From: a virus
Direction: 5' to 3' (one strand)
IMG/VR virus record: IMGVR_UViG_3300032240_002311
Location: 1 to 34,391 of that record
Length of the DNA: 34,391 nucleotides
The translations under genes and the position numbers were made by a program. Below are positions 13,943 to 31,410 of this stretch, piece by piece. Under the pieces are notes generated by a model. That model made no database searches. It had not been told where the DNA came from and saw nothing but the letters and a program-made list of their open reading frames with translations. Position 1 is the stretch's first letter. Each line of letters starts with the position of its first letter.

Positions 13943-13944
13943 TT

Positions 13945-14289: not shown

Positions 14290-14298
14290 GTTATTGGG

Positions 14299-14541: not shown

Positions 14542-14544
14542 GAT

Positions 14545-14757: not shown

Positions 14758-14767
14758 GTGGGCCACC

Positions 14768-15127: not shown

Positions 15128-15135
15128 GGCTTCTT

Positions 15136-15166
15136 AATTGGAACTTGGTGGTTGGCACTTGGAATT
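15136..15166 (-). repeat. Heptad repeat, AAGTTCC family (4 units, degenerate)
   Basis: Minus strand: AATTCC, AAGTGCC, AACCACC, AAGTTCC, then AATT. It lies between the stop of the 109-aa gene and the start of the 119-aa gene. Confidence 0.8.
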
Positions 15167-15496
15167 TCACAGATGCACGTCGAGCACCGCCTTGACCTCC
15201 ACCAGCCCCTTGACCGTGGCCCAGTCCCTGGCGGCGGGCATGATGTCTTCCAGGCGGCGGGGCCGCAGATAGTGAGGCGTACGGCGGGGCCGTGTGCGCT
15301 CGCCCAGGGCGAAAGCGCGTTCCTGAAGCCAGACCTTGTAGGCATAGCCCTCGCGATCGCTGGGATACTCAGCGAAGGCGGCGCGGATCCGGGCCCGGAC
15401 CTGCTTACGGGTTTCTCCCTGGCTGCTGATCAGAGCGGTGGCGATCAGGGCGCGGGCCGTGGTCCGCCAGTTGATCCGTGGAGCGGTGTCGATCAT
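15167..15496 (-). CDS. Unknown basic protein, 109 aa
   Basis: Starts MIDTAPRINWRTTARALIAT in ATGA overlap with the ASCH gene, so the two are co-translated. Arg-rich, mainly helical, with KQVRARIRAAFAEYPSDREG and a basic ERTRPRRTPHYLRPRR segment, suggesting nucleic-acid binding. No named family recognised. Confidence 0.72.
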   Translation of the reverse strand: MIDTAPRINWRTTARALIATALISSQGETRKQVRARIRAAFAEYPSDREGYAYKVWLQERAFALGERTRPRRTPHYLRPRRLEDIMPAARDWATVKGLVEVKAVLDVHL

Positions 15497-15876
15497 GACT
15501 GCGGCGTTTTGAGTTCGACGTTGAAGAAGTTGAGGCGGCCCGACATCGGCTGGAAGGGCACCAGGCGCGGATTCTTCAGCACAAAGCCGTAGTCTCCGAA
15601 GAACCAGGGGGAAGCATCCCGGTCGACACAGTCCACGATCTCGACGGTGCCCACGATGCCGCCGCGTTCCAGATCCTCGAAGGCTGGCAGCGTGACTCCC
15701 TGCTCTTCTGCCAGGACATCGGCGATGGCGTATTCATCCCGAGTCATGCCCTTGGAAGCATGCACCGCGATCCGGCCACGCTGGTGGGTCTTCCACTGGC
15801 GGTTCTCGATGTCCTTGTGACCGTTCACGATCAGCCAAGCCCAGGGCTGGCGAATGGAGAGTGCTTTAAAAGTCAT
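15493..15876 (-). CDS. ASCH-domain protein, 127 aa
   Basis: Starts MTFKALSIRQPWAWLIVNGH. Hallmarks of the ASCH/PUA-like fold: SIRQPWAWLIVNG, then GHKDIENRQW (the G-x-K-x-x-E-x-R type motif) and GRIAVHASKG; later GGIVGTVEIVDCV and WFFGDYGFVL. ASCH proteins bind RNA or modified nucleotides, and some are enzymes on modified cytidines. In phages they can recognise or edit modified nucleic acid. Family call is firm, substrate unknown. The GAGGACAC leader is directly adjacent to the ATG. Confidence 0.88.
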   Translation of the reverse strand: MTFKALSIRQPWAWLIVNGHKDIENRQWKTHQRGRIAVHASKGMTRDEYAIADVLAEEQGVTLPAFEDLERGGIVGTVEIVDCVDRDASPWFFGDYGFVLKNPRLVPFQPMSGRLNFFNVELKTPQS

Positions 15877-15883
15877 GTGTCCT

Positions 15884-15918
15884 CGTTTCGGATTTAGGAT
15901 TTAGTGCTTCGTGCTTTC
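15884..15918 (-). repeat. Heptad repeat, CTAAATC family (5 units)
   Basis: Minus strand: GAAAGCA, CGAAGCA, CTAAATC, CTAAATC, CGAAACG, in exact 7-bp phase, just before the ASCH start. Unit by unit it matches 16445-16479. Confidence 0.88.
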
Positions 15919-15959
15919 CCGAAATGGGTGTCCTCGGTGAGTGGGTTCGGAGGGAATTT

Positions 15960-16436
15960 TCAGCCCTCGGAATTTCCGCCCTGATCGTTGGAAATCGGGA
16001 CGGGCGGTTCATCGGGCGCGGATGGGGGTGATCCCGCCTCAGAGACCCCGGCGAGGCCCGGCGAGGGGGTGTTTTTCGGGGTCTCACCATCATTCGATCC
16101 CGATTGGCTGAAATTCGGCGGTGGAACGTCTCCGATTTCTTTCCGGAGCCAGAGGGCGGCACCCTCAAGCTGCTGGATGGCGAGGGAGCGTTCGCGGGTC
16201 TTCGCATCGCTCCGGAAAAGTCGTAAGGCCAGCCCCTCGATTTCGGCGATCATGACCTGATCCTGAAGAAGAGTCTCTTTGGTGAAGGCAATCTGCCCAT
16301 CCAGGGATTTCGCTTCCAATGCGGCAGCGTGAGCATCAGCCGGAAGTGTGGCGGGATGGTTGGCACGGTTGAAGGCCCGTGCGCGGCGGGAGTGGAAGCT
16401 GGCGAGGGCGTAGTGGAGTCCTTTGAGTGGGTTCAT
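15960..16436 (-). CDS. Possible Acb2/Tad1-like cyclic-nucleotide sponge, 158 aa
   Basis: Helical residues 35-75 are followed by RERSLAIQQLEGAALWLRKE (81-100). The pattern '(S/T)RExSLAxxxLExAxxWLxKxI' is what I associate with the Acb2/Tad1 hairpin family, phage proteins that sequester signalling nucleotides of CBASS and Thoeris defence. The C-terminal 50 residues are Pro/Ser/Gly-rich and disordered. Usual family members lack this tail. The position in the accessory island fits a counter-defence gene. The assignment is from motif memory only; another helical-hairpin phage family is the alternative. Confidence 0.5.
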   Translation of the reverse strand: MNPLKGLHYALASFHSRRARAFNRANHPATLPADAHAAALEAKSLDGQIAFTKETLLQDQVMIAEIEGLALRLFRSDAKTRERSLAIQQLEGAALWLRKEIGDVPPPNFSQSGSNDGETPKNTPSPGLAGVSEAGSPPSAPDEPPVPISNDQGGNSEG

Positions 16437-16444
16437 GGTAGTCT

Positions 16445-16479
16445 TGTTTCGAATTTAGAATTTAGTGCTTCGTGCTTTC
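16445..16479 (-). repeat. Heptad repeat, CTAAATC family (5 units)
   Basis: Minus strand: GAAAGCA, CGAAGCA, CTAAATT, CTAAATT, CGAAACA, just upstream of the 158-aa gene. Same five-unit order as 15884-15918, differing only by substitutions. Confidence 0.88.
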
Positions 16480-16484
16480 TTCCC

Positions 16485-16904
16485 TCACCTCACGGCCGCC
16501 GTGGCCTGCTTGTAGAGTTCGAGCCGCGCCGGGGTCCAAAACTCGGGATCCTTGGCGGCGTGCAGGTGTTTGAAGAAGGATTCCAGGTTCAGCAGCGTGG
16601 TGCCGGGGGTGAACTGGATGGTTTCAATGAAGCCGGCGAAGGCCAGGCGCTTCAGGATGCGGGGGTTCATCATGCCCAGGCCCAGCACCTCGGTGGCGTT
16701 CTCGGTGAGGCGGAGAAGGGCGGGCCAGATCTTCACCTTCGCCACGAACTTCTGATCGCCGATCGATTCCATGGAGATGAAGCCATAGATCGGGCACTCG
16801 TGGCTGTCCGGCAGATCCGCCACCAGGAAGCCTGGGGCGACTTCCACGGCGCGGAGCTTGGTGCCGTTTGGCAGGTTGACTTCAGTGGTGATGGGCTGGG
16901 ACAT
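16485..16904 (-). CDS. Unknown early protein, possible winged-helix/MerR-like DNA-binding end, 139 aa
   Basis: Starts MSQPITTEVNLPNGTKLRAV. The N-terminal half is beta-rich. Residues about 78-120 (MMNPRILKRLAFAGFIETIQ, then NLESFFKHLHAA) look like a small MerR/excisionase-type helix-turn-helix with a strand. It lies 2 bp after the gp16/GemA-position gene. It could be the activator of late genes (Mor/C position), but it does not resemble Mor or C directly. Confidence 0.6.
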   Translation of the reverse strand: MSQPITTEVNLPNGTKLRAVEVAPGFLVADLPDSHECPIYGFISMESIGDQKFVAKVKIWPALLRLTENATEVLGLGMMNPRILKRLAFAGFIETIQFTPGTTLLNLESFFKHLHAAKDPEFWTPARLELYKQATAAVR

Positions 16905-16906
16905 GG

Positions 16907-17608
16907 TCAGGCTTTCTTGGCGCGTTGCTTGTTATTCCGGCTCCACGTGGCTCCGCGACCTTCACGCGCGGCGATGCGATTCCGGATGGTGTAGAGGATC
17001 TGGCGCAGCTCGGTAGCGGTGAGGCTGTCCAGGCTGCGGCCCTTGCACTTCGACTTCGCGATGGCGATGACGTAGTTGGCGCAGATCAGGCCGCCCTTCT
17101 CGGTGACCTTGGCGGCGATGATGGGATCCCAGCCTTCCTTGCCGGGGCTGCACTTCGCCGCATGGGCGGTGAGTTCCTGGACGATCAGCGTGCGCTGGGT
17201 TTCCCGGTTCTCGTGGGTGTCATCCAGGGCACCGTGATCCTTCACGCGGCCCGTCTTCAGCTGATAATTGAAGGCCTGGTCATCGCGGCCAGCCAGGCAG
17301 AGGAAGTGGGCGAGGAGCGGACGGAAGTGCTGATTTCCGCAGTTCGTGAGGGACTCGATCCGCACGGCTCGGATCTGCTCTTTCCGACGCCAGGCGGTGA
17401 CGCGGGCGGAGTCGGAGGCTCCCTCGGTCTCGATTAGGCCCAGACGATCCTGGTGATCGAAGGCCTCCCGTGCCACCTGGGAGATCCGCGCCTTTTGCAG
17501 CTTGGAGAGCCCGGTGCCGGAGGTGGCCCGCATCGGCTGGGGGGAGGCGGCCGTGCGGCGGTTGACGGCCTTCCGGCCAGTGTCATCAGGTGTCCTCTTG
17601 ATGCTCAT
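16907..17608 (-). CDS. Early protein in gp16/GemA position, 233 aa
   Basis: The start MSIKRTPDDTGRKAVNRRTA at 17608 is preferred because a GATCAC heptad leader lies directly before it; a longer frame would read through that leader. The N-terminal basic region and helical body (KEQIRAVRIESLTNCGNQHF) are followed by a C-terminal SKCKGRSLDSLTATELRQIL, which resembles the 'S..dLt..EL..vl' part of GemA/DUF1018 proteins that modulate host functions in Mu-like phages. Match is partial, so the family is tentative. It ends Arg/Lys-rich. Confidence 0.55.
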   Translation of the reverse strand: MSIKRTPDDTGRKAVNRRTAASPQPMRATSGTGLSKLQKARISQVAREAFDHQDRLGLIETEGASDSARVTAWRRKEQIRAVRIESLTNCGNQHFRPLLAHFLCLAGRDDQAFNYQLKTGRVKDHGALDDTHENRETQRTLIVQELTAHAAKCSPGKEGWDPIIAAKVTEKGGLICANYVIAIAKSKCKGRSLDSLTATELRQILYTIRNRIAAREGRGATWSRNNKQRAKKA

Positions 17609-17612
17609 TTCA

Positions 17613-17633
17613 GTGACGGGTGATCGGTGATCG
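17613..17633 (-). repeat. Heptad repeat, CGATCAC family (3 units)
   Basis: Minus strand: CGATCAC, CGATCAC, CCGTCAC, then TGAAATG with the ATG of the 233-aa gene. Same word as 27243-27270 on the other strand. Confidence 0.85.
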
Positions 17634-17634
17634 G

Positions 17635-17808
17635 TTAGAGGCGGAGATCCGGAAGCGTGCGCTTCTGGAGGTCGATCGGGCGGCTGCCCCACTTCCGGCG
17701 CTGGTGCTGCTTCTGGCGGCGGCGGCGTTCATTGGCACGGATGGCCAAGACCGAGATTCCGAGCGGCGCGAAGAAGGTGAAGAGACAGCTGAGGATTTCA
17801 GTGATCAT
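17635..17808 (-). CDS. Small membrane protein, 57 aa
   Basis: A gene too short for usual cut-offs. It starts MITEILSCLFTFFAPLGISV, one transmembrane helix at residues about 4-23, then a strongly basic cytoplasmic tail (NERRRRQKQHQRRKWGSRP). The ATG overlaps the upstream stop by ATGA. The positive-inside pattern predicts N-out, C-in. Small membrane proteins in early phage operons may affect entry or host physiology; function unknown. Confidence 0.75.
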   Translation of the reverse strand: MITEILSCLFTFFAPLGISVLAIRANERRRRQKQHQRRKWGSRPIDLQKRTLPDLRL

Positions 17809-18314
17809 GCGCCCTCCTCTCCATCTCGCACGGCGGCGGGATCCTTGGTTTCATCCCAGGCGATCTGGACGGTGCTCTTGGCGATGCCCGCCTTGTCCCG
17901 CTGGGTGGCAGCTTCCACTACCAGGGCGAAGGTCTCCGGATCCAGATTGGTGCGGGCCAGCTCACGCCAGGCCTTGCCATCTTTCCCGAGGCGCTTGAAC
18001 CCGCGCTCTTCCTTGAAAAGAAGCGTGAGCTTTTCGCCGGTGAGTTCTGCCAGCCGCTGATGCAGCGGACCATCGAAGGGAAAGCTGGCCACGATAGCAT
18101 CCGCCGTGAAGCGGACCGGCAGCACGTAGCGCGGGGAGCGCAGCAGGCACTGGCGGCCCTCGCGGCCTTCATCCTTCAGCGGGATGTGCTCGCCACGCTC
18201 AGCAGCGAGTTCCAGACGGGCCTCGATCTGCTTCAGCTCGGCGACCAGGGCAGCGAGCTGGCCCTTGATCTCCTTGCCGCGTTCAATGTCGGCGGCGATT
18301 TGTTCCGGTGTCAT
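17805..18314 (-). CDS. Unknown early protein with coiled-coil N-terminus, 169 aa
   Basis: Starts MTPEQIAADIERGKEIKGQL. Residues 5-45 form a coiled coil (AALVAELKQIEARLELAAER). A beta-containing segment (CLLRSPRYVLPVRFTADAIV) and a helical C-terminus (AGIAKSTVQIAWDETKDP) follow. It sits where Mu-type phages often encode Gam, which also begins with a coiled coil, but I do not see Gam's conserved segments, so the name is not applied. Confidence 0.78.
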   Translation of the reverse strand: MTPEQIAADIERGKEIKGQLAALVAELKQIEARLELAAERGEHIPLKDEGREGRQCLLRSPRYVLPVRFTADAIVASFPFDGPLHQRLAELTGEKLTLLFKEERGFKRLGKDGKAWRELARTNLDPETFALVVEAATQRDKAGIAKSTVQIAWDETKDPAAVRDGEEGA

Positions 18315-18338
18315 CTTGGTGTCGGAATGAGTAGGAGG

Positions 18339-18611
18339 TTAGAGACCGAGACGGCCCTTCAGGACGGCAATCCGGGAGTCGAAGGACTTCAGGGCACGGG
18401 GTTCAGCCTTCTGATGACGGCCACGAATCCGGATGAAGTCAGCGTAAAGCTTGTCCGCTACTTTCTGAGCGTGGAACGAAGCCTTGGCGGCCTTGTCGCG
18501 CTCGGTCTTGAAGTCCTTCGCCACCTTCCGGCGGTTGGCTTCCAGCTGTTTGATTTCCGCTTTCCAGACTTTGCGCTGGGCGGCCTCGGGTGATGTCTTT
18601 TTAGCAGGCAT
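18339..18611 (-). CDS. Small basic coiled-coil protein, 90 aa
   Basis: Starts MPAKKTSPEAAQRKVWKAEI. Lys/Ala/Arg-rich, helical almost throughout (QLEANRRKVAKDFKTERDKA). No cysteine-based site, no signal peptide. A CTAAATC heptad leader lies just upstream. Possibly DNA binding by charge; function unknown. Confidence 0.72.
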   Translation of the reverse strand: MPAKKTSPEAAQRKVWKAEIKQLEANRRKVAKDFKTERDKAAKASFHAQKVADKLYADFIRIRGRHQKAEPRALKSFDSRIAVLKGRLGL

Positions 18612-18620
18612 GGTGATGTT

Positions 18621-18655
18621 CGTTTGGGATTTGAGATTTAGGATTTCGGGCTTTC
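18621..18655 (-). repeat. Heptad repeat, CTAAATC family (5 units, diverged)
   Basis: Minus strand in 7-bp phase: GAAAGCC, CGAAATC, CTAAATC, TCAAATC, CCAAACG. It lies between the 77-aa and the 90-aa genes and is the diverged relative of 15884-15918 and 16445-16479. Confidence 0.85.
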
Positions 18656-18871
18656 CGTCTTCAGCGGATCGATCTTCGCAGCGAGTTCATCCAGGCTCCG
18701 GGCGGCATCGCTCAGCACGTGGGTGAGGTTTTGCCTCATGGCAGCGGAGCTGGTCAGAGGGCTGGCGGGATCGCCGGAGATGCAGGATTCAATCGCGAAC
18801 TCGATCAGGCCGAGGCGGCCCAGCAGATCGAGACCGTCCTTGAAATCGATGGGTGGGAGGGCAGTGTTCAT
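18638..18871 (-). CDS. Small early protein after B, 77 aa
   Basis: Starts MNTALPPIDFKDGLDLLGRL in ATGA overlap with the B ATPase stop. Mostly helical, slightly acidic (LTHVLSDAARSLDELAAKID). The last codons read into the heptad repeat (TESPKS). No family recognised. Confidence 0.72.
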   Translation of the reverse strand: MNTALPPIDFKDGLDLLGRLGLIEFAIESCISGDPASPLTSSAAMRQNLTHVLSDAARSLDELAAKIDPLKTESPKS

Positions 18872-19902
18872 CGGGTCTTCAGGGTGAGTTCGAGTTCGGC
18901 GGCTTTCTTCGCCACGACATCGGCGGTCAGCTCGACGGTGGCCTTGTTGAGGTGCTCTGCCATGCGGCGGAGGAAGGCGAAGCCCCCATGGAAACGGGCG
19001 GACGCGACGATGGCGGAAATGGCCTTTTCCCAGGCGACGGTCTTCAGGGCCTCCACCCGGCGAGGGAGGAACATGAGCACGTCATCCGCAGACGGCGGAG
19101 CCAGGCGCACCCGCTCGAACATCCGGTTGAAGATGACCTGCATGGCCTCTTCCCAGTACTTCGCGGCGAGCTTCTTCCAAAGCGTGTCGATGCAGGCCAG
19201 CAGCACCCAGGACTCGGTCTTGTTGAGGATCGTCTTGATCAGGTTCAGCATGGCGGCACCGCCGTGGTGGCCTTCATCGATCGCCAACATCAGGCGCTTT
19301 GACGACATGCGGCCCGTGATCATGCCCAGGCGCTCTGCCAGAGTGCGCGGCAGCTCGCCATCGCGGGCCTGCTGCTCGGTGTAGATGCCGAGGGCCACCA
19401 GGATGTCAGCGGTCATCGCCATGGGACTGGCCCAGGTCTCATTCGCTTCCACCACGAAGACCTGACCCGGAAAGCGGGAGGCGATCACGGAAATGGCCGA
19501 GGATTTCCCGGATCCGGTAGGGCCTTCCACCAGGATGAAGCGTTCCTTCCCCCGCTGGGAGAAGACACCGCCGGCAGCCTGGAAGACTTCAAAGGTGGGA
19601 GTCAGATCGGCGTAGAGTTCCTCACGGCCATCGATCCCGGTGGCGGACTCGATCTGAGCCCAGACACCCCGGTATTTTTGCAGCTGGGTATCGATCACCA
19701 GGCTGCTGGTATCGCCATCGCGGAGGCGGCGATAGGTCTTCGTGCTGCCAAGGCCCGGGAAATGGCGGACCATGGCCTCATCACTCAGCCGTGGGCTGGT
19801 GCGGTCCTGGTAGGCGCGGATGTTCTGCGCCAGCTGGAGAAGCTCGGAGGTGGATTCTTCCACGTGCTCCGGATGGGAGGCTTCCATGAAGGAGACGCTC
19901 AT
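18868..19902 (-). CDS. B: MuB-like AAA+ ATPase, transposition target protein, 344 aa
   Basis: The start MSVSFMEASHPEHVEE at 19902 lies 1 bp after the upstream stop. The N-terminal 90 residues contain a helix-turn-helix-like stretch (LSDEAMVRHFPGLGSTKTYR), as in MuB. Walker A is GPTGSGKSS at 127-135 and Walker B LMLAIDEGHH at 204-213. In Mu, B forms ATP-dependent filaments on target DNA, delivers it to A and gives target immunity. Mu B has 312 residues, comparable. Its place close to A supports the role. A small secreted-protein gene separates the two here. Confidence 0.9.
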   Translation of the reverse strand: MSVSFMEASHPEHVEESTSELLQLAQNIRAYQDRTSPRLSDEAMVRHFPGLGSTKTYRRLRDGDTSSLVIDTQLQKYRGVWAQIESATGIDGREELYADLTPTFEVFQAAGGVFSQRGKERFILVEGPTGSGKSSAISVIASRFPGQVFVVEANETWASPMAMTADILVALGIYTEQQARDGELPRTLAERLGMITGRMSSKRLMLAIDEGHHGGAAMLNLIKTILNKTESWVLLACIDTLWKKLAAKYWEEAMQVIFNRMFERVRLAPPSADDVLMFLPRRVEALKTVAWEKAISAIVASARFHGGFAFLRRMAEHLNKATVELTADVVAKKAAELELTLKTR

Positions 19903-19903
19903 G

Positions 19904-20302
19904 TTAGAGGCCCCCCTTTCCATCCTTGGCGGCTTCCACGGCAAAGCGCTCCGCCGTGCCGATGTAGGGATGGATTCCCTCGGCGGTGGGCTGGAAGACG
20001 GTAGCCGTCTTCGGGAAGGCGCGGTTCACCATGACGGTGAAAGTGCGGCTGATCCCGTTGGTGGGGGCCACTTCCGGCAGCAGGTATTTCCAGATGCTGC
20101 GATCCGGCATGCGGACGTGCAGTTCCCGACCGACGAAGATGCCCTCGATCAGGATCGGGAGCGCATCCTGGACAGGTGCGGGGTAGGTGGAGGGATCCTC
20201 CTGGAGGCGGTGTCCCTGGTCTGCGGCTCCGGCGGTATGCGCGGAGGCCACGGCGGCGAGGCCCAGTGCGGCCTGCATCAGTGTCAGTTTCGATGTTTTC
20301 AT
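19904..20302 (-). CDS. Small secreted protein encoded between A and B, 132 aa
   Basis: The start MKTSKLTLMQAALGLAAVAS at 20302 has a GAGGACAC leader 4 bp upstream. It has a textbook signal peptide: KTSK, hydrophobic core, then SAHTAGA-AD with a likely cleavage after AGA (residue 26). The mature part is about 106 residues, mixed alpha/beta (LPILIEGIFVGRELHVRMPD), no Cys. Ends AKDGKGGL. A periplasmic or exported protein between the two transposition genes is odd; a role at the cell envelope, such as exclusion, is a guess. No family recognised. Confidence 0.78.
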   Translation of the reverse strand: MKTSKLTLMQAALGLAAVASAHTAGAADQGHRLQEDPSTYPAPVQDALPILIEGIFVGRELHVRMPDRSIWKYLLPEVAPTNGISRTFTVMVNRAFPKTATVFQPTAEGIHPYIGTAERFAVEAAKDGKGGL

Positions 20303-20334: not shown

Positions 20335-22149
20335 TCAGAAATGGTTCTTCGCGGCCGCTTCCAGGGCGGCCAGCTGGGCAGCGCGATCGCTGCCGAAAAG
20401 GGCATTGCCATCCCCGGCCAGCTCCGGCCGGGTGGCGGCGAGCCCCACGCGACCCGCTGGCGCGGGCGTAGCCGAGGGGCGGGCCGGAGTCGTGGGGCGC
20501 TCGATCGGCGGCAGCGTGCCGGCCGTGGCGGCGCGGCCGGAGCCATCCATGGCCACGATCTCGCGGCGACCAGGTGCACCGGATTTCACGGCGCGGAACT
20601 CGGTGGCGGCGGCAGCGGAGGCGGCGCGGCGGAGATCGAGCGTGCCGTGGCGCTTTCCAGAGAGATTGATCTGCGGAGCCAGCTCGACGTGCGGAGCGGA
20701 GGCCAGCAGGCACTGGCCCATGGACCAGCCGTTGCGATTGCGCGGGGAGCGATCGGCATTGGCGATGTAGGCTCCCGCCGAGGGATCGAGCGGGTCACAG
20801 GCCACCAGGACGGCATGGCCGTTTTCCAGGGAAAGCCCGTCGATCCCATTCACGCAGAAAGTCATCTCCGGCCAGCCTCCGCCGGGGTTCACGCGGACCA
20901 TGCCGCCAGCGATCACGCGGCGCTGTTTCACAGGCAGCAGACGCCAGGCTTCATTCATGGGAAGGGGGGTGGTGTTCCAGCCATGGCGGGCCACCAGGTC
21001 ATCGGCGCTCACCCGCTCATTCAGGGCCTTTCGCTCACGCGGGCGGCTGTTCATGATCCGGGCGGCTTCCTCGTGGGCAGCAGCACACTCGCCTTGCTCC
21101 CAGAATCCCAGGGCACGCGGATCCGGACGGGAGGCGGCGTTCTTCGCCTGGCGCCACGCCTTGGCGCTTTCCTCGAACTCGCCGGCGTAGCGGCCCACGT
21201 CGCGGCCGGAGTGGGCCAGCCAGTTTTGCAGCGGGTTGAAGCTGCCTTCCAGGGTGCCCTTGCCCTTGGATTTCCACACGTGTTCGATGTGGCAAAAGTG
21301 GTCGAGGGCACCCCACGGCAGGGTAAGGCCCTCGACAGCTAGGCCGTGAATGTAGGAAGAATCCCAAGATCCCCGCTCCAGGCGGAGGAAGCGCGGCACG
21401 CCATGGGCGCGGAAGAGTCGGCCGATGAAACGGACGATGTCTTCGCCACGATAGGCATCCCGCTCGCGACCAATCAGGTCAAAGCCGAGCCAGCCCGCAC
21501 CACCGACATCCATGCCGGCGAGGATCTGGCGGCCCAGTTCCAGCTCGCCCGTTTCCGGGTTCAGGAAGGTGTAGGGCTGATTGCAGGAATAGTCGTCCAG
21601 CTCCCAGAGTTCACCGGGCAGAAGGTTGTGCATCTCTCCGGCCTCATCCATCCAGAGCAAGCCACGGCGGGTGACCATTTCGGTCTCCATGGTGGCCTTT
21701 TTGCCCCGGAAGCGGGCCCGCTCATCCTCGGTGACATGGAAGGCGCGGCACACCGAAGTGGGCCAGCTGGGGGACTTGCCAGATTCCAGGGCGCGTTCCT
21801 CGATCTTCCGCAGCGCGGCGACCGATTCAGCGGAAGCACCCGGATCCTGGCAGTAAAAGTGGATGGCGATGTCCAGGCTGGCCTTCGTAAGGCGGTGCCA
21901 GCGGGCGATCGCCAGATCAGATTCGGTGAACTCCGCAGAAGCCGGGCGGCCCGTGGGCTTTCCAGGGGTGAAGGCCTCCCATGCGTCGCCGCCCGCTTTC
22001 TCCAGATCCCGATTCCAGCGTGAGAAGCTGGCAGACGATACACCCGCAGCGGCACAGGCAGCGTTCTGCGAAAGGCCAGCGGCCATCGCGGAGCGCACCC
22101 GGTTCACCAGGGCGGATTTCTCAACGGGAGATAGAGAAGAGGGTTTCAT
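20335..22149 (-). CDS. A: MuA-like DDE transposase, 604 aa
   Basis: N-terminal helix-turn-helix at about 10-46 (LSQNAACAAAGVSSASFSRW). The integrase-core residues are read as D185 in LWELDDYSCNQP, D263 in LERGSWDSSYI, and E301 in KGTLEGSFNPLQNWL, in the correct order and spacing. A Mu-type C-terminal beta-barrel region follows (PVKQRRVIAGGMVRVNPGGG), then an Ala/Pro-rich tail (about 530-604), where MuA has the B-interacting domain. MuA is 663 aa. It cuts both ends and joins them to target DNA. Start overlaps the upstream HTH gene by ATGA. Confidence 0.92.
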   Translation of the reverse strand: MKPSSLSPVEKSALVNRVRSAMAAGLSQNAACAAAGVSSASFSRWNRDLEKAGGDAWEAFTPGKPTGRPASAEFTESDLAIARWHRLTKASLDIAIHFYCQDPGASAESVAALRKIEERALESGKSPSWPTSVCRAFHVTEDERARFRGKKATMETEMVTRRGLLWMDEAGEMHNLLPGELWELDDYSCNQPYTFLNPETGELELGRQILAGMDVGGAGWLGFDLIGRERDAYRGEDIVRFIGRLFRAHGVPRFLRLERGSWDSSYIHGLAVEGLTLPWGALDHFCHIEHVWKSKGKGTLEGSFNPLQNWLAHSGRDVGRYAGEFEESAKAWRQAKNAASRPDPRALGFWEQGECAAAHEEAARIMNSRPRERKALNERVSADDLVARHGWNTTPLPMNEAWRLLPVKQRRVIAGGMVRVNPGGGWPEMTFCVNGIDGLSLENGHAVLVACDPLDPSAGAYIANADRSPRNRNGWSMGQCLLASAPHVELAPQINLSGKRHGTLDLRRAASAAAATEFRAVKSGAPGRREIVAMDGSGRAATAGTLPPIERPTTPARPSATPAPAGRVGLAATRPELAGDGNALFGSDRAAQLAALEAAAKNHF

Positions 22150-23221: not shown

Positions 23222-23394
23222 TGTCCCACCTCCTTTTTGGCCAAGGCTTCCGCCTCGGCGATGTTCTCATAGGACATCCGGGCCTTGACGATCAGGATGG
23301 CATGGTCAATGCCCGCCGCCTGGCCACGGTTGAAGGGGCTGTCCGTCTTGGTGCCGTGCTTCAGCACCAGCAGATCCTTGAGTATCTGGATCAT
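23218..23394 (-). CDS. Small early protein, 58 aa
   Basis: Begins ATG (MIQILKDLLVLKHGTKTDSP) with GGAGGT six bases upstream and an ATGA overlap with the Ner-like gene. Helical, with FNRGQAAGIDHAILIVKARM in the middle and a C-terminus KKEVGQ whose codons contain the next ribosome site. No family recognised; gene order and signals support it. Confidence 0.75.
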   Translation of the reverse strand: MIQILKDLLVLKHGTKTDSPFNRGQAAGIDHAILIVKARMSYENIAEAEALAKKEVGQ

Positions 23395-23597
23395 GGTGCC
23401 ACCTCCTGCTGCTGGGCCTTCAGCTCGCGATAGCGGGCAGTCAGGCTTTTGCTGGTCCGCTCGCCAGTGAGCACGCGGAAGAGATGCGTGCGGTCACACT
23501 TCAGGGCCTCCGCGTCGGCAGTGATCCCGGGAAACTGGATACCGCGCAATTTGCGCGATCGCTTTCCGGGCTTGGCTTTGAATCGTTTGGTGTCCAT
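23391..23597 (-). CDS. Ner-like small DNA-binding regulator, 68 aa
   Basis: Lys/Arg-rich N-terminus (MDTKRFKAKPGKRSRKLRG), then an HTH-like part: ITADAEALKCDRTHLFRVLT, GERTSKSLTARYRELKAQ. The motif 'C.R.HL..VL.GER.S..L..RY' is common in small phage repressor-like proteins. It is the first gene of the leftward block, diverging from the repressor, the place of ner in Mu (which shuts off early and repressor transcription). The start at 23597 has no strong ribosome site. Confidence 0.78.
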   Translation of the reverse strand: MDTKRFKAKPGKRSRKLRGIQFPGITADAEALKCDRTHLFRVLTGERTSKSLTARYRELKAQQQEVAP

Positions 23598-23704
23598 CTT
23601 TCGTCGCGTGCAACATCACGCTTGCGGCAAAAGAATCACGCAACGCATAAAATGACAACAGAAAAATCACGCAACGCGGATAATTTCGCAGATCGATTGC
23701 GTGA
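23598..23704. promoter_or_regulatory. Divergent switch region with operator array
   Basis: It lies between the Ner-like gene (minus) and the repressor (plus). Two identical 13-mers AATCACGCAACGC are at 23634-23646 and 23665-23677 (31 bp apart). A variant ATCACGC lies at 23615-23621 (20 bp before the first), and an inverted copy ATTGCGTGA at 23696-23704. The second identical copy is inside the first codons of the repressor gene. Spacing near multiples of a helical turn suggests cooperative binding by the repressor, the Ner-like protein, or both. Promoter boxes could not be assigned with confidence. Confidence 0.75.
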
Positions 23705-24176
23705 AGCCATGGAGCTTCGAAAAATCACCCAATCTGAGCTGGCAAGGGATCTAGGCACTGCTTGGAGCACAGTCGCGCGCTGGTTGGAAGGGTCAGTTCC
23801 GAGACGAAAGACACTTCTCGAAATTTCTGAAACGCTCAGCGTTGCGTCACGCTGGTTGGAGGAAGGAGAAGGGCCGATGGAGAAGCCAGGCTGGGGCCAA
23901 GAAAGCAGTTCCCTTAAAGAACCTGAAGTTTCCTATGGGTCTAAAACGAAAGCGACTTTGGAACAGGAGGCTGCTGAGCAAGATGCCATCGCTAGATCTG
24001 CCAAAGGAATCGGCCTCGGGCTTGATGCCGAGCTGAGCGTGGCCCTGACTGATATCCGCATTCGACTTCAACAGCTTCACCTAGCCAGCAAGCAAACGAG
24101 AGCCCGCTACATCGCGGAATGCCACCAGCAAATCGACCGCTATGCCGCCAGCGTGGCGGAGAAATTCAAAGATTAA
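23652..24176 (+). CDS. Prophage repressor, HTH_3 (cI/XRE) type, 174 aa
   Basis: The start MTTEKSRNADNFADRLREAM is preferred over a longer upstream frame that would read through the operator region. The XRE helix-turn-helix spans about residues 12-70 (LRKITQSELARDLGTAWSTV, then ARWLEGSVPRRKTLLEISET). The C-terminus is helical (AELSVALTDIRIRLQQLHLA) and may dimerise. No LexA-like Ser/Lys self-cleavage motif is evident, unlike lambda cI. It is likely the lysogenic repressor acting on the neighbouring operators. It is AT-richer than the head genes. Confidence 0.85.
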   Translation: MTTEKSRNADNFADRLREAMELRKITQSELARDLGTAWSTVARWLEGSVPRRKTLLEISETLSVASRWLEEGEGPMEKPGWGQESSSLKEPEVSYGSKTKATLEQEAAEQDAIARSAKGIGLGLDAELSVALTDIRIRLQQLHLASKQTRARYIAECHQQIDRYAASVAEKFKD

Positions 24177-25151: not shown

Positions 25152-25176
25152 ATGCGTGAGCGTGCGGGGGTTTTTT
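25144..25176 (+). terminator. Intrinsic terminator ending the lysogeny transcript
   Basis: A C-run followed by ATGC-GTGA-GCGT and a GCGGGGG arm gives a GC-rich hairpin, then TTTTTT at 25171-25176. It separates the repressor/moron transcript from the rightward late block, which therefore needs its own promoter between here and 25196 or readthrough. Confidence 0.82.
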
Positions 25177-25195
25177 GTTCCTAGCGTGGCGGTGC

Positions 25196-25549
25196 ATGCT
25201 GCCCACCGCGCCCTTCCTTCTCGCTGCTGCTGATGCTGTCTCCACCGGTCCTCTTCCGGCGAACACTGTCTGGGTAGGATTACTAGCCCTCGGATGTTAC
25301 TCCATCCTGCTCGCTGCGGATAAGGCGATCTCGATTTGGAAGAATGTCAAAAAAACGCCAGCCGATCACGAGACCTACGCCACAAAATCCGAGATGCGTG
25401 AATTCGAGTCCCGCGTGGAAGGGAAGCTGAACCGCATGGATGGCTCCATCGCCACTCGCTTGGAACGGATGGAAAACACGATCGGGGCCGAGCTTCGCAG
25501 CATCCACCGCAGCCTCGGCCGCCTCGAAGGCCATAACGAAGAAGGCTAA
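25196..25549 (+). CDS. Putative holin-like membrane protein with coiled coil, 117 aa
   Basis: Start MLPTAPFLLAAADAVSTGPL at 25196 (a TTG start 7 codons upstream would read out of the terminator). One transmembrane helix at about 25-43 (VWVGLLALGCYSILLAADKA), then a long charged coiled coil (FESRVEGKLNRMDGSIATRL). First gene of the lysis/packaging block. Similar proteins with one helix and a coiled coil occur beside phage endolysins; the holin role is positional. Confidence 0.68.
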   Translation: MLPTAPFLLAAADAVSTGPLPANTVWVGLLALGCYSILLAADKAISIWKNVKKTPADHETYATKSEMREFESRVEGKLNRMDGSIATRLERMENTIGAELRSIHRSLGRLEGHNEEG

Positions 25550-25561
25550 CCCTTTTCCCCA

Positions 25562-25831
25562 ATGGCACATCAGGACACATCAGACATCGCGGAGATCCGC
25601 CGCACCGTTCGCGGCTACCTCGCCGAGCGCCCATCCGTCGCACAGTCGCCAGAGACCATCGCGGCCCGGCTGAAGCGTGAACATGGATTCACCGAGGATG
25701 AAGTGTCCGCCGCCTGCGTGGTGCTCACTGCCCTCCGCCACCTTTCCGAGACTACCGATCCGCTCGGTGGCTCCATCCGTTACTACCGCGCCACGGCTGA
25801 AGGCATCCTCGCCCATGAAGCCGGGTTCTGA
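25562..25831 (+). CDS. Small protein with winged-helix-like fold, 89 aa
   Basis: Starts MAHQDTSDIAEIRRTVRGYL. It has the helix pattern of a small winged helix: ETIAARLKREHGFTEDEVSA, then helix (AACVVLTALRHLSE) and a wing (PLGGSIRYYRATAEG). Between a holin-like and a lysis gene, it may regulate the late block or act in packaging; no family name. Confidence 0.72.
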   Translation: MAHQDTSDIAEIRRTVRGYLAERPSVAQSPETIAARLKREHGFTEDEVSAACVVLTALRHLSETTDPLGGSIRYYRATAEGILAHEAGF

Positions 25832-25860
25832 AGTTCCAAGTTCCAACAACCAAGTTCCAA
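25831..25860 (+). repeat. Heptad repeat, AAGTTCC family (4 units)
   Basis: Plus strand: AAGTTCC, AAGTTCC, AACAACC, AAGTTCC, then AATG with the start of the next gene. Confidence 0.9.
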
Positions 25861-26246
25861 TGAAGACTCCACTCCTCAAATTCCTCGCTGGTCTCGCCGC
25901 CCTCGGTTCCACCCTCGGCGTCCTGGACCTTTCCAAGGTCACCAACATCCTCCCTCCGAAGGTGGCCTTCTGGGTGGCCCTTCTGCCACCGATCGGCGCG
26001 GCCATCGTCCATTTCGCCCTGGCATGGGGAGACAACCTGGATGACGGCCAAGCCAATGATTCCTTCAAGGTGAAGTGCTCGGCCCTCGTCCTCCTCGGTG
26101 CGATCTTCATCGCCCTGGCATGCACCAGCTGCCAGGTGCCGCTCTCCATCTCCCTGGCGGATGCCCGCTCCGGTATCGCCGGCACGTACAGCAGCAAGGG
26201 CGGTCTGGGCCTTTCCTACACCCGCCCGATCCAAGCGACGAAATGA
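25860..26246 (+). CDS. Membrane lysis protein with internal lipobox (holin/spanin candidate), 128 aa
   Basis: Start MKTPLLKFLAGLAALGSTLG at 25860, directly after the heptad leader. Hydrophobic segments lie at about 5-20, 34-55 (KVAFWVALLPPIGAAIVHFA) and 74-87, and the third ends in a lipobox-like LACTSCQ. A beta-like tail follows (GTYSSKGGLGLSYTRP). It may be a holin fused to, or containing, an outer-membrane lipoprotein. Overlap ATGA with the endolysin gene fits a lysis cassette. Confidence 0.72.
   Translation: MKTPLLKFLAGLAALGSTLGVLDLSKVTNILPPKVAFWVALLPPIGAAIVHFALAWGDNLDDGQANDSFKVKCSALVLLGAIFIALACTSCQVPLSISLADARSGIAGTYSSKGGLGLSYTRPIQATK
26070..26246 (+). CDS. Possible embedded lipoprotein (o-spanin-like), 58 aa, in frame in the lysis gene
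   Basis: An in-frame GTG at 26070 would start VKCSALVLLGAIFIALACTS, a short positive start, hydrophobic core and lipobox Cys, typical of phage outer-membrane lipoproteins. Whether it is made separately cannot be told from sequence; no ribosome site is evident. Confidence 0.3.
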   Translation: MKCSALVLLGAIFIALACTSCQVPLSISLADARSGIAGTYSSKGGLGLSYTRPIQATK

Positions 26247-26824
26247 ATCCCTTCGCCTGGATCGCGAACCTTTTCCGCAAGGAAACGAGCGGAAGCATTG
26301 GTGGGGCCGTGTCCTCCCCTGCGAGTGCTTCCGCTCGATCCTCTTCCACTCTCATGCAAAATCTCCCCTACGACATCGCCAAGCAATACCTCGGCCAATC
26401 GGAAATTCCCGGCGTGAAGGACAATCCCTTCATCCTCCGCGTGCTTCGTGCCTTGGACAGCTCGATCCGCTCTGAGGAAACCGCCTGGTGCTCTGCTTTC
26501 GTGAACTTCTGCGCCCGTGAGGCCGGATACGAATCGACCGGGAAACTCAATGCCCGGTCCTGGTTGACCGTGGGCGACAAGATCCCGCTCGAACTCGCGA
26601 AGCTCGGCGACGTCGTCATCCTCTGGCGCGGAATTAAGGACGGCTGGATGGGCCACGTGGCCTTCCTCGATCACTACAACGCCAAGCGCGGCCTCCTCTA
26701 TCTCCTCGGCGGCAATCAGTCCGATGCCGTGAACATCAGCAGCTACGGCACTGATCGCCTGCTTGGCATCCGCCGCCTCCGCTCGCTCGATCGCCTGCAA
26801 GGGAACACCAGCCGACAGGTCTGA
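26243..26824 (+). CDS. Endolysin, TIGR02594/CHAP-NlpC-type peptidase, 193 aa
   Basis: Start MNPFAWIANLFRKETSGSIG at 26243 in ATGA overlap. The catalytic Cys is C83 in ETAWCSAFVNFCAREAG; the His is H138 in GHVAFLDHYNA; a polar residue N158 in YLLGGNQSDAVNISSY completes the pattern of the TIGR02594 family. These enzymes cut peptide bonds in peptidoglycan. No export signal, so it needs a holin, which neighbours supply. Confidence 0.86.
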   Translation: MNPFAWIANLFRKETSGSIGGAVSSPASASARSSSTLMQNLPYDIAKQYLGQSEIPGVKDNPFILRVLRALDSSIRSEETAWCSAFVNFCAREAGYESTGKLNARSWLTVGDKIPLELAKLGDVVILWRGIKDGWMGHVAFLDHYNAKRGLLYLLGGNQSDAVNISSYGTDRLLGIRRLRSLDRLQGNTSRQV

Positions 26825-26853
26825 AGTTCCAAGTTCCAATCACCAAGTTCCAA
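26824..26853 (+). repeat. Heptad repeat, AAGTTCC family (4 units)
   Basis: Plus strand: AAGTTCC, AAGTTCC, AATCACC, AAGTTCC, then AAC, directly after the endolysin stop and 14 bp before the next start. Confidence 0.9.
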
Positions 26854-27279: not shown

Positions 27280-27966
27280 ATGTCCACACGCACCCGCCAA
27301 GGCAAGATCGCCCGCCTCCCTCACCACCTTCGTGAGGAAGTGAACCGGCGCTTGCTCGACGGACAGACCAGCAAGCAGATCCTCACTTGGCTGAACAAGA
27401 ACCCGGATGCCAAGTCAGTCTGGGAAGCACACTTCGAAGGCGCGGAAGCCACTGCTCAGAACCTCTCCGAATGGCGTGCCGGCGGCTATCGGGATTGGAC
27501 CGGCCGCCGCGAAAAAGCGGATGCCCTCAAGACCCTTTCCGCCTTCGCCCGTGATCTCGCCGAGGCCTCCGGCGGCACGCTGGCCGATGGTGCCGCTGCC
27601 ATCCTCGGTGGCCACATCCTCGAAGCCCTGGAAGAAAGCGCCAACCTCGTGGTGACCGGCGGCAGCGACGATGCCGAGAAGGATCCCAACGATGGCCTGG
27701 TGAAAATGGCCCAGGCCGTGGCCTCCCTGCAAAAGGGCAGCGTGGCCCGTGACAAGCTGAACCTGGACAAGCGGAAGACCGATCAGAAGGACCGCCAGCT
27801 TCAGCTCGATCGCGAAAAGTTCGAGGCCCAGACCGTGGCCAAGTTCCTCGAATGGGCGAAGTCTCCCGAGGCCATCGCCATCCTGGATTCCGGGAAGCCG
27901 AAACACGTCCAGATGGATGCCCTTCGCGCCCTCATGTTCGGACCTGAAAAGGAGGGAGCGAAGTGA
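27280..27966 (+). CDS. Small terminase subunit, Mu gp27-like (DUF3486), 228 aa
   Basis: Starts MSTRTRQGKIARLPHHLREE. Family signature at the N-terminus: GKIARLPHHLREEVNRRLLD, then GQTSKQILTWLNKN and SVWEAHFEGAEATAQNLSEW, the HTH that recognises packaging DNA. The rest is helical (KTDQKDRQLQLDREKFEAQT). Length matches DUF3486. Overlaps the large terminase by GTGA-type junction. It chooses the cut site at the element end during headful packaging. Confidence 0.9.
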   Translation: MSTRTRQGKIARLPHHLREEVNRRLLDGQTSKQILTWLNKNPDAKSVWEAHFEGAEATAQNLSEWRAGGYRDWTGRREKADALKTLSAFARDLAEASGGTLADGAAAILGGHILEALEESANLVVTGGSDDAEKDPNDGLVKMAQAVASLQKGSVARDKLNLDKRKTDQKDRQLQLDREKFEAQTVAKFLEWAKSPEAIAILDSGKPKHVQMDALRALMFGPEKEGAK

Positions 27967-28883
27967 GCCAGCCCCTCGTCAATCTCCGCGCCTATCAGCA
28001 GGAAGCCTTCCGCCACCCGGCGGGCCTTCTGGCCTGGCTCTATCGCCGCCAGTCTGGAAAGTCATACGGCCTCGGCGTGACGGCGCTCGATTGGATGATG
28101 GAATCCGTCTGCACCGTGGTCTTCGCCTCTGCCGCGCTTCGCCTCGGGATGGAAAACATCCTGAAGGAAGCCGAGATCTGGCGACAGGTCACCGGCCAGC
28201 TGCGCGAAGCGGCCAAGGCCGCCGGCTACTCCCTCACCAGCTCCGCCGATGACAACAAGGGCCAGCTGCTCGACGTCGATGCCATTGCCGATCTTTTCGA
28301 GCACCAGAAGCTGGAAACGAAGCTCTGGCATTCCCGCACCACTTACTCGCGATCGATGGTGGTCGCCCCGAATCCAGACACCGCAGTGGGATGGACCGGT
28401 CACGTGATCCTGGATGAAGTGGGCCGCATGCCGGAATTCCAGGAAGTCTTCGAAGCGATGGAACCCATCGTTTCCTCTTCCTCCAAGTATCGGGTCCGCA
28501 TGGCCACCACGCCGCCACCGGATGATGGCCACTACTCCTACGAGCTGCTGGCCCCGCCACCCGAGCTGGAAGGCACCTTCCCGGTCAACCCTCGTGGCAA
28601 CTGGTACACCAGCCGCCTCGGCATCCTGGTGCATCGTGTGGACGCCTGGGACGGCGATGCCGCCGGTGTGCCTCTCTACGATCTGAAGTCCCGGGAAAAG
28701 CTCACCCCGGAAGAGCACCGCGCCCGCTCAGTCGATAAGACCGCCTGGGATCGGAACTACGGCATCAAGTTCATCAAGGGAGGCACCACCGCGCTTTCCC
28801 TCGCCGCCCTCACTCACGCCCAGATCGCCGGCCAGCACGAAGGCACCGGCATCCACATCACCGAGTCACTGACCGCTGCATGA
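27963..28883 (+). CDS. Large terminase, ATPase part (split Mu gp28), 306 aa
   Basis: The GTG-start frame reads MSQPLVNLRAYQQEAFRHPA. Walker A is RRQSGKS (28-34), Walker B HVILDEVGRM with D151-E152; coupling segments include YRVRMATTPPPDDGHYSYEL. It stops at IHITESLTAA, exactly where an intact large terminase goes on into its nuclease domain. Together with the nuclease gene at 29117 the total (306 plus 241 aa) equals one Mu gp28-sized protein. The ATPase pumps DNA into the head. Confidence 0.88.
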   Translation: MSQPLVNLRAYQQEAFRHPAGLLAWLYRRQSGKSYGLGVTALDWMMESVCTVVFASAALRLGMENILKEAEIWRQVTGQLREAAKAAGYSLTSSADDNKGQLLDVDAIADLFEHQKLETKLWHSRTTYSRSMVVAPNPDTAVGWTGHVILDEVGRMPEFQEVFEAMEPIVSSSSKYRVRMATTPPPDDGHYSYELLAPPPELEGTFPVNPRGNWYTSRLGILVHRVDAWDGDAAGVPLYDLKSREKLTPEEHRARSVDKTAWDRNYGIKFIKGGTTALSLAALTHAQIAGQHEGTGIHITESLTAA

Positions 28884-29074
28884 AATTCTTCCTCGGCTTC
28901 TTCTCCACTCCAGATCGCTTCTCGATCCTGCCCGCCCTCACGCTCCGCGTGATGCGTTGCGAGGATCCGAACTGCGGGGCCATCCACGGCTACGAACTCG
29001 GCCTTCATTGGGCCGAGTGGGGCATTGGTGGGGGAGTCGAGTTTCACCCCGACGAACCCGACATCGAATTCTAA
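28880..29074 (+). CDS. Small protein between the terminase halves, 64 aa
   Basis: Starts MKFFLGFFSTPDRFSILPAL in ATGA overlap with the ATPase. Contains one CEDPNC pair and an aromatic C-terminal half (YELGLHWAEWGIGGGVEF). Not a homing endonuclease or intein by sequence. It sits in the gap that splits the large terminase, so it may bridge the two halves or be an inserted cargo. Family not recognised. Confidence 0.68.
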   Translation: MKFFLGFFSTPDRFSILPALTLRVMRCEDPNCGAIHGYELGLHWAEWGIGGGVEFHPDEPDIEF

Positions 29075-29075
29075 C

Positions 29076-29110
29076 CGTCGTCATTCGGAAATTCCTCATT
29101 CGTCATTTCC
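29076..29110 (+). repeat. Heptad repeat, CATTCGT family (5 units)
   Basis: Plus strand: CGTCGTC, ATTCGGA, AATTCCT, CATTCGT, CATTTCC, then TCTCCC and the ATG of the nuclease gene. Confidence 0.9.
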
Positions 29111-29116
29111 TCTCCC

Positions 29117-29842
29117 ATGACTCCCCGCGCCGCCATTCCTTCCAGCTGGGCAGACCGTCTCACCGATGGTCCGATCTCGCTTGGGCAGGACTTGGCGACG
29201 ACTGAGCGCGGAACCTCGAACCCCTCGGGCCTCGCTGTCCAGCAGCGTGTCGGCCGCCAGGTGATGACGCGGCTGATGGTGTCCTGGAAGACCGCCGATC
29301 CCTCGGTGACCCGCCAGGTGCTCGCCGCTGTCCTGGATGACATCGAAGCGAAGCGGATGAAGCCGCGGCGCTTGGTGGTGGATGCCTCGAATGAAAAGTT
29401 CTTCGCCTCCGATCTGCGGAAACAATTCGGCGGTCGCGTGGCCGTCGAGCTGATCGGCGGAAACAACAAGATCAAGTTCCGTGGCGAGGATCTGGATGCC
29501 AAGACCCTGCTCGGGAATCTCTACGTTTCCGCCATTGAAGACGGCTTCCTGCTGCTGCCCGCCGGTGAGTGGATCATGCTTGATCATCGCCTGGTCAAAC
29601 GGGAGGCCGGTGGCTTCCAGACCGATACCGGCCCGAATGGTGAGCACGGCGATACCTTCGATGCCGGAAAGCTCGCCTACTACGGCCTGCAATCCACCTC
29701 GGGCACCGTCCGCGCCGAGGCCCTGCAGGTCGGCAACTTCGGAGGGATGAACTCCGACTCCAAGCGGCCCGTTTTCACCGATCCCTGGATGGATGGGATC
29801 GCCCGTCAAAACCTTGAGGAAATGTCCTCGCACCTCGCATGA
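29117..29842 (+). CDS. Large terminase, nuclease part (split Mu gp28), 241 aa
   Basis: Starts MTPRAAIPSSWADRLTDGPI. RNase H-like acidic residues are D25 in SLGQDLATTE, D89 in RRLVVDASNE, and D179/D182 in EHGDTFDAGKLAYYG, the usual order for a terminase nuclease. It cleaves concatemeric or host-joined DNA at packaging. It has its own start and a heptad leader, so it is expressed as a separate polypeptide. Overlaps the portal by ATGA. Confidence 0.86.
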   Translation: MTPRAAIPSSWADRLTDGPISLGQDLATTERGTSNPSGLAVQQRVGRQVMTRLMVSWKTADPSVTRQVLAAVLDDIEAKRMKPRRLVVDASNEKFFASDLRKQFGGRVAVELIGGNNKIKFRGEDLDAKTLLGNLYVSAIEDGFLLLPAGEWIMLDHRLVKREAGGFQTDTGPNGEHGDTFDAGKLAYYGLQSTSGTVRAEALQVGNFGGMNSDSKRPVFTDPWMDGIARQNLEEMSSHLA

Positions 29843-31410
29843 AAATTCCCCTTCCGAAATGGGTCTACGCCCTCTTGCCAACGACGACGAAGGTTGTCGT
29901 GGATGACGCACGTTTCGAAACGCCCGCCATCGCCCACACGCTGGATGCTGATCGGCTCAGCTCCATCCTTCGCAGCGCCGAGGGTGGAAACATGGAAGAC
30001 TATTTCGGCCTCTGCCGTGATGTCATCGGTGGCCACACCCACGCCCAGGCGGAGTTCGGAAAGCGGAAGCTGGCGGTGATCGGGAAGGACGCTGTCTTTT
30101 CGCCCGATGATGAAAACCGGCCCGCCGCCGTGGCCCTCGCCGAGGAGATCGAGCGACAGGTGACCCAGCTTCCGAACTGGATGGACATCGAGCTCCACCT
30201 TCTCGACTCGACCCTTTACCCGCTTTCGATCGTTGAGAAAATCTATCGCCCTTCGGATCGTCCCGGCGTGCGCTACGAACTCGCCGAGCTGCGGGCCGTG
30301 CCCTATCGCCTGATCGACTACACCACCGGCCGCCTGATGCTCTGGGATGTCGATGATCAGGGCCAGCGCCTCGCGACTCGTCATTGCCCGGATCCCACTC
30401 GCTACATCATCCACCGTGGCCACGCCCTCACCAGCCTCCCGGACACTTGGGGCGGCCCGATGCGTGCCGTGTTGTTCTGGTACTTCTTCAGCGTGGCGGA
30501 TCGCTCATGGTGGGCTCGCTTCCTCGATCGCTTCGGCGCGCCCTTCATGGAGGCCAGCTATGACGAGTCCGACGATGCTGCCCGCCTGACCCTTTCCCGG
30601 GCCTTCAGTGCCGCCACGAAGCTCTTCGGCATCGCCGTGCCGAAGTCCGTCGAGCTGAAGATGCACCAGGCCAACAGCAGCCAGGGAGGCGATGCCTTTG
30701 AAAAGTTCCATGCCGTCGCGAATCAGGAAATGTCGAAGGCCATCGTCGGCCAGACCCTTTCCGCAACCGGCCAGAACCTTGGCCTCGGTGGTGGCCAGGC
30801 CGCCGTGCAGGAAAACGTCCGGGATGACATCCGGGAGTTCGATAGCAAGCGCCTTGCCCACACGCTGAAGACTCAGCTCTTCGTGCCGATCTGCCAGATG
30901 AACGGCTGGTTTGAAAAGCCGCCGGAGATCCAATGGGGTGGCGAGTCCTCCGATGATCTCGCAATCACGAGCGACTTCCTGACTGCTCTGGCCCCTGCTG
31001 GCCTCCAGATCACAGACGAATGGATCAAGATCCTTTCGAAGCGCTCCGGCCTGCCCTTGGAACGCATGGCGGCCGGTGCCCCGCCACTGACCGGCCTGCC
31101 CCTGGCCGCCGGCGTGCCGCGCCTCCGCGATCTGAAGACCAGCGCCGAGCTGCGCACCGATCGCCTCCGCGATGCCAACGATGCCATCGCCCGATCCGGC
31201 GCGGAAGAGTTCGCCCAGGCCATGCACGATTCCCTGGCACCGGTCCGCTCGATCCTCGCAGCCTCATCCTCCATGGATGACTTCGAACGCCGCCTCCGGG
31301 ATGAATTCCCCGGCATTCCCTCCCGCAAGGCCGCCGAGATCCTCGCCGCCGCCATGATTTCCAACGCCGCCAACGCTATCCTCGAATTCCCAACCCCTGC
31401 ACAATCATGA
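29839..31410 (+). CDS. Portal protein, Mu gp29-like (DUF935), 523 aa
   Basis: Starts MKIPLPKWVYALLPTTTKVV. Matches the DUF935 portal pattern: LRSAEGGNMEDYFGLCRDVI, HAQAEFGKRKLAVIGKDAVF, then WYFFSVADRSWWARFLDRFG, and later SKAIVGQTLSATGQNLGLGG. Length is typical (Mu gp29 about 512). It forms the 12-subunit ring through which DNA enters and leaves. In Mu it is followed by F on the same strand; here F is about 16 kb away and on the other strand. Confidence 0.93.
   Translation: MKIPLPKWVYALLPTTTKVVVDDARFETPAIAHTLDADRLSSILRSAEGGNMEDYFGLCRDVIGGHTHAQAEFGKRKLAVIGKDAVFSPDDENRPAAVALAEEIERQVTQLPNWMDIELHLLDSTLYPLSIVEKIYRPSDRPGVRYELAELRAVPYRLIDYTTGRLMLWDVDDQGQRLATRHCPDPTRYIIHRGHALTSLPDTWGGPMRAVLFWYFFSVADRSWWARFLDRFGAPFMEASYDESDDAARLTLSRAFSAATKLFGIAVPKSVELKMHQANSSQGGDAFEKFHAVANQEMSKAIVGQTLSATGQNLGLGGGQAAVQENVRDDIREFDSKRLAHTLKTQLFVPICQMNGWFEKPPEIQWGGESSDDLAITSDFLTALAPAGLQITDEWIKILSKRSGLPLERMAAGAPPLTGLPLAAGVPRLRDLKTSAELRTDRLRDANDAIARSGAEEFAQAMHDSLAPVRSILAASSSMDDFERRLRDEFPGIPSRKAAEILAAAMISNAANAILEFPTPAQS

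Follow-up and report, generated by a model that had tools for sequence, protein, structure and literature searches.

A transposable phage with two diverging arms

The window, by which we mean the whole stretch of DNA analysed, is a complete metagenomic IMG/VR record of 34,391 bases, close to the two ends of which lie TGTAACGCCGCGAAAATCGTGAAACA (start 96) and TGTTTCAAGCCTTTCGCGGGTTCTCA (end 34390), inverted copies of each other and MuA-type end sites. The left terminus (TG...CGCGAAAATCGTGAAACA; 96-121, minus strand) is an inverted match to the right terminus (34265-34390, plus strand), which carries end-type sites at 34265, 34287 and 34366 and closes with the final CA at 34390. Inverted TG...CA termini with multiple transposase sites are characteristic of transposable phages of the Mu/B3 type and, because they lie at 96 and 34390, the window contains an essentially complete transposable phage of 34,295 bp. 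Bases 1-95 probably represent flanking host DNA, and the right flank is a single base after the terminal CA. The core of the end site, GTTTCANNNNTTTCG, is found as an exact match once at each end (left copy, 106-120) and once more at 23819-23833 (minus strand), within the repressor gene. In Mu, an enhancer to which the transposase binds lies within the genome close to the repressor, but the sequence of this enhancer differs from GTTTCANNNNTTTCG.

Gene identity and direction were checked by HMM searches. The minus strand, read leftward, carries the genes for a Ner-like protein, the transposition proteins A and B, a set of early genes, the head genes F, G, I and T, and the tail; the plus strand, read rightward, carries the genes for the repressor, lysis, the small and large terminase subunits (TerS and TerL), the portal and a lectin-domain spike. 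The two arms diverge from a switch gap at 23598-23651, which is 23,502 bp and 10,739 bp away from the termini. Thus, the two blocks diverging from an internal switch, 23.5 kb from one end and 10.7 kb from the other, that had been proposed from the DNA alone (hereafter, the original prediction) are real: their genes are named by HMM and recur in the same order in three bacterial contigs (see below). The break between portal and F, and the rearrangement relative to Mu that it implies, were also correctly predicted.

At the switch, the first gene of the transposase arm (23391-23597, minus strand) codes for a small protein of 68 aa that had no match in HMM searches; it is referred to as Ner-like because of its position and of a 49% match to the protein that starts the transposase arm of a relative (G182; see below). 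The first gene of the packaging arm codes for a helix-turn-helix (HTH) repressor (23652-24176, plus strand; phrog_2328, E = 6e-14; PF01381); its start is most likely the ATG at 23652 and not that at 23484, since the HTH domain begins at about residue 70 of the longer ORF. An operator-like cluster of ATCACGCAA sites (23551-23732, unstranded) spans the gap, with sites at 23635, 23666 and 23697 (the latter on the minus strand) spaced by exactly 31 bp. Five of the ten genome-wide matches to the ATCACGCAA-like pattern fall within these 182 bp, a clustering whose statistics are indicative, the pattern having been picked from the switch region itself. The cluster is a plausible candidate for the operator of the repressor. 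A scan of the switch region for sigma-70 promoters gave matches that were not above chance.

Genes of the transposase arm

All the genes of this arm are on the minus strand. The Ner-like gene is followed by A, the transposase (20335-22149; phrog_310, E = 8e-5), homologues of which adjoin B in relatives, and by B, an AAA transposition protein (18868-19944; phrog_296, E = 4e-15; PF13401); a DDE transposase with an adjacent AAA partner is a further trait of transposable phages. A is named more weakly by HMM than B, F, G, I, T and the head-tail adaptor. Comparison by hhalign of the transposase of the window and its relatives with A of B3, Mu, KS10 and Mushu gave low probabilities, and homology to a known A was not established by these pairwise profile comparisons; AlphaFold, run on A without an alignment, returned a pLDDT of 38. 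In a distant alignment with the catalytic triads of the same four phages, the middle acidic residue, Asp in Mu, B3, KS10 and Mushu, aligns as Glu (E258), within motifs that read RLERGSW, VVEGGTW, RIERGVW, RWERGTW and RLERGIW in the window and in the relatives G045, G100, G001 and G182. The active site of this transposase is possibly, to judge from the alignment, D-E-E.

Small early and middle genes occupy 13670-18871 as a series of ORFs, including one for an ASCH protein (15493-15876; PF04266); homologues of two early genes, 16485 and 16907, are found between B and F in relatives. F, the minor head/DNA pilot protein, has a C-terminal extension (11931-13628; PF04233 (Phage_Mu_F), E = 1e-12; phrog_220, E = 4e-29). 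G (Neck1/tail completion; 10359-10856; phrog_26, E = 1e-13), I (head maturation protease/scaffold; 9264-10277; phrog_328, E = 8e-27), T (major head protein; 7708-8616; PF10124 (Mu-like_gpT), E = 3e-64) and the head-tail adaptor (7195-7620; phrog_195, E = 7e-9) follow in this order, and the block extending to the left end (358-7620) is assigned to the tail by position, with ORFs at 358, 1275, 1860, 2540, 4551, 5082, 5547, 6069 and 6570, of which ORF 2540 (590 aa) is tape-measure-like by its length. Two genes lie between F and G. One is a C-terminal fragment of a tyrosine recombinase (11269-11583; PF00589, E = 7e-16), odd for a transposing phage, which adjoins F in the window; in G001, a homologue (L247:12158-12391) immediately precedes F. 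The other codes for an HTH protein resembling domain IV of DnaA (10863-11267; PF08299, E = 3e-13), a possible candidate for a late regulator.

Genes of the packaging arm

On the plus strand, the repressor is followed by a lysis block (25175-26824) with a CHAP-like endolysin (26246-26824; phrog_1259, E = 2e-29), and by TerS (27280-27966; phrog_426, E = 1e-7). TerL (27963-29842) is formed by two ORFs, an ATPase (27963-28883; phrog_2, E = 8e-11) and a nuclease (29117-29842) that has no family match and is named through its match to the TerL of relatives, to which both halves are similar; a 64-aa ORF (28880-29074) lies between them. TerL is likewise split in G045 and G100 and is a single ORF in G182, G287, G290, G361 and G220; the TerL of the window had no match in our phage collection. 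The portal gene (29839-31410; PF06074 (Portal_Mu), E = 2e-60) completes, together with F (PF04233) and T (PF10124), the Mu-type head proteins expected of a transposable phage. The last gene before the right end codes for a spike/virion protein with a Laminin_G_3 domain (31755-34226; PF13385, E = 1e-9; phrog_10356).

The divided layout in relatives from Verrucomicrobiota

Searching across the phylum, in 388 Verrucomicrobiota genomes, we found ten portals that are 36-44% identical to that of the window, far above all other matches; viral contigs scanned with A and with the portal singly yielded no relatives. The layout that the original prediction proposed to look for in this phylum, with terminase and portal opposite the head genes around the switch, is present on three bacterial contigs of 100-270 kb (G045 C19, G100 C11 and G287 C3), with portal-TerL-TerS on the minus strand and A-B-F-G-I-adaptor on the plus strand. 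In G045 and G100, genes for HTH repressors are found on the strand of the portal, just before the A arm. In G182, portal-TerL-TerS and ner-A are also on opposite strands, and the contig then ends. In the loci with the closest relatives of T (L009-L013), the portal is absent before F, and early gene 16485 is found there in L009, L011 and L013. From where the relatives lie, we infer that the host phylum is Verrucomicrobiota. In the literature, covered through titles, abstracts and selected papers, we came across no description of such phages from this phylum. The best inverted matches sought as ends of the G045, G100 and G287 prophages were no better than chance, and the placement of the phage ends relative to the portal comes, among these phages, from the window alone.

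A metagenomic record, the right end of which stops one base past the terminal CA, could be a chimera of two prophages joined at the switch. However, the same order is carried by three independent bacterial contigs, which refutes a misassembly; moreover, the window has one matching terminus per end and an ordinary length of 34.3 kb. We therefore regard a chimera as scarcely credible.

In a portal tree of 75 rows, the window groups with the ten Verrucomicrobiota rows in a single clade (SH-aLRT 100, stem 2.0); KS10, B3, L207 and CAM-P21 are on very long branches, and their positions are unsure. Divided layouts occur in both main branches of the 11-member clade, seven members of which are on short or partly degenerate contigs where both arms are not visible. 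Because both branches contain divided layouts, the split of the head module is most likely older than their divergence.

We also surveyed 215 loci or records in which the portal is accompanied by one or more of F, I and T, assembled from portal and head-protein searches; as related and overlapping records are included, the counts are a description and not a frequency. The genes are co-oriented in 209 of them. In the window, G045, G100 and G287, by contrast, F, G and I (and T, where recognised) are opposite the portal; KS10 and L207 are the other exceptions. F itself is opposite the portal, among these mixed Mu-type loci, only in the window, G045, G100 and G287.

A linker shared by the two arms

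The sequence CAAGTTCCAA occurs in exactly seven copies in the window, all within four stop-to-start gaps (7166-7190 and 15138-15165 on the minus strand; 25830-25860 and 26823-26853 on the plus strand), each in the sense of its own arm. In these four cases, found in both arms, the intercistronic linker has the form TGA-AGTTCCAAGTTCCAAC-ACCAAGTTCCA-ATG, with 28-43 nt from the stop to the next start. With one mismatch allowed, CAAGTTCCAA has 13 sites, against 1.7 expected. A 16-base form is present in ten of the 388 Verrucomicrobiota genomes, and the heptad repeat of the linker is sparse in a few genomes of this phylum. We considered the linker as a late promoter, a role that is disfavoured by the way it fills the stop-to-start gap and by the presence of the heptad repeat in few Verrucomicrobiota genomes. 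Its position, directly next to or very close to the start codon, also counts against promoter activity and points to a role in translation or at the mRNA level, or to a spacer that has been copied. A different repeat, ACAGCAAGCGTACNACAGCAAG, is present in about ten copies in the prophage region of G287 C3 (L290/L297), several of them just before start codons.

The near-identical linkers are inverted between the two arms (7166 and 15138, minus; 25837 and 26830, plus) and could recombine, which would allow the layout to have arisen by an independent, recent inversion private to the window phage. However, the layout is common to relatives with portals about 37-42% identical to that of the window and occurs in each of the clade's two main branches, and none of the fetched relative loci contains repeated copies of the exact 10-base linker. 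A private inversion is thus highly improbable.

Origin and expression of the divided head module

Pseudomonas phage B3 (NC_006548) is organised on a similar plan. In both B3 and the window, arms diverge from a central switch, with Ner, a DUF3102 protein, A and B leftward and the repressor, lysis, TerS, TerL and portal rightward. In B3, the repressor is at 9,990-10,400 of 38,439 bp, Mor, GemA, B, A and Ner run left, with Mor/GemA ending the leftward arm, and repressor-lysis-TerS-TerL-portal-F-G-I-T-tail run right. The window has this central switch and differs in that F-G-I-T-tail is not on the repressor arm. The original prediction had assigned to Mu and to B3/D3112-type phages alike a repressor next to the left end and one-way transcription; this is right for Mu and wrong for B3, with its central repressor and diverging arms.

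We consider it very probable that the window phage represents an undescribed Mu/B3-type lineage associated with Verrucomicrobiota, with a B3-like central switch and with the F-to-tail block relocated to the transposase arm. Descent from a B3-like plan is suggested by the layout. The F-G-I-T-tail block would have left its place after the portal, where the repressor arm ends, and moved to the far end of the transposase arm, dividing the head module, and a single inversion on the circle of joined ends could turn the B3-like plan into that of the window. The relocation is most likely a single event that preceded the separation of the two main branches and has persisted in the lineage.

As to expression, the genes for the repressor and the Ner-like protein, facing each other on opposite strands across a short operator region, would start the two arms. 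The repressor is predicted to bind the operator cluster and to shut the leftward early promoter; upon induction, Ner, A and B would drive replicative transposition. A putative phage activator may then switch on the late promoters in both arms, by analogy with Mu C at its four late operons. In Mu, one activator, C, drives four late promoters, and two late arms are therefore no problem in themselves; the special coordination of two late transcripts that the original prediction called for was overstated. No match to the Mor/C family (PF08765) was detected in the window at E ≤ 1. Because Mor/C is also reported to be absent from transposable prophages of Leptospira (PMC8705779), we have not treated it as obligatory for transposable phages. 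That the late arms are timed without Mor/C through the linker, which a phage protein that binds RNA or DNA would recognise, in combination with a D-E-E transposase, strikes us as very unlikely.

Comparison with known transposable phages

Enterobacteria phage Mu (NC_000929) has a homologous portal, F and T, the A/B transposition pair and MuA-type end sites; unlike in the window, its repressor is at the left end, its other main operons all run in one direction and the portal directly precedes F. The canonical Mu/D3112 order, portal then F on one strand, is not that of the window. L207, a Campylobacterales prophage locus, also has a divided head module, in which G-F-portal-TerL-TerS are on one strand and I-T on the other, so that F and G, unlike in the window, stay with the portal. 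In Campylobacter phage CAM-P21, portal, F and protease are together but opposite A. In L168, a Mu-like prophage of Bacteroidetes, A and B are on the strand opposite I and T.

The Burkholderia phage KS10 (NC_011216), described in 2008, has a capsid module that its authors termed divided and unique (PMC2628397). As in the window, a central repressor/Ner switch separates an arm with the repressor, lysis, TerS, TerL and portal from an opposite arm that carries A, B, the early genes, protease, major head and tail. The window thus shares the KS10-type split of terminase and portal from protease, major head protein and tail, but its F is with G-I-T, whereas in KS10 F stays with the portal, and homologues of Mor and GemA are present. 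Of KS10-like TerL matches on enterobacterial plasmids, the one case examined has the canonical Mu order. The likeness of both arms could mean that the divided layout was inherited jointly with KS10 from one ancestral split, F having changed arm later, and the G045 major head protein does match T of KS10 better than T of the window. However, similarity between the proteins of KS10 and the window is weak or absent, the KS10 portal is only about 22% identical and far off on a very long branch, and T of the window is near the D3112/Mushu type and not near that of KS10. We therefore find common descent of the two divided layouts unlikely, and favour a relocation within the Verrucomicrobiota-associated lineage.

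The TG1 transposable prophages of Leptospira also have two arms diverging around regulators (PMC8705779); they differ in their spirochaete hosts, and their layout is known from a text that omits the exact strands and the position of F. A match on a Leptospira plasmid comprises terminase and portal, without transposase or head block. Divided head modules of this kind are thus already in the literature, in KS10 and Leptospira TG1, and the novelty lies in the host phylum and in how deeply the layout is conserved. Mu-type head genes usually form one operon, as the theory of modular evolution expects, and here a phylum-wide lineage keeps the module divided, which suggests that the constraint on the head module can be broken once and the new arrangement then held. 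Together, the window lineage, KS10 and Leptospira TG1 provide a testable set for the timing of two late arms without Mor/C.
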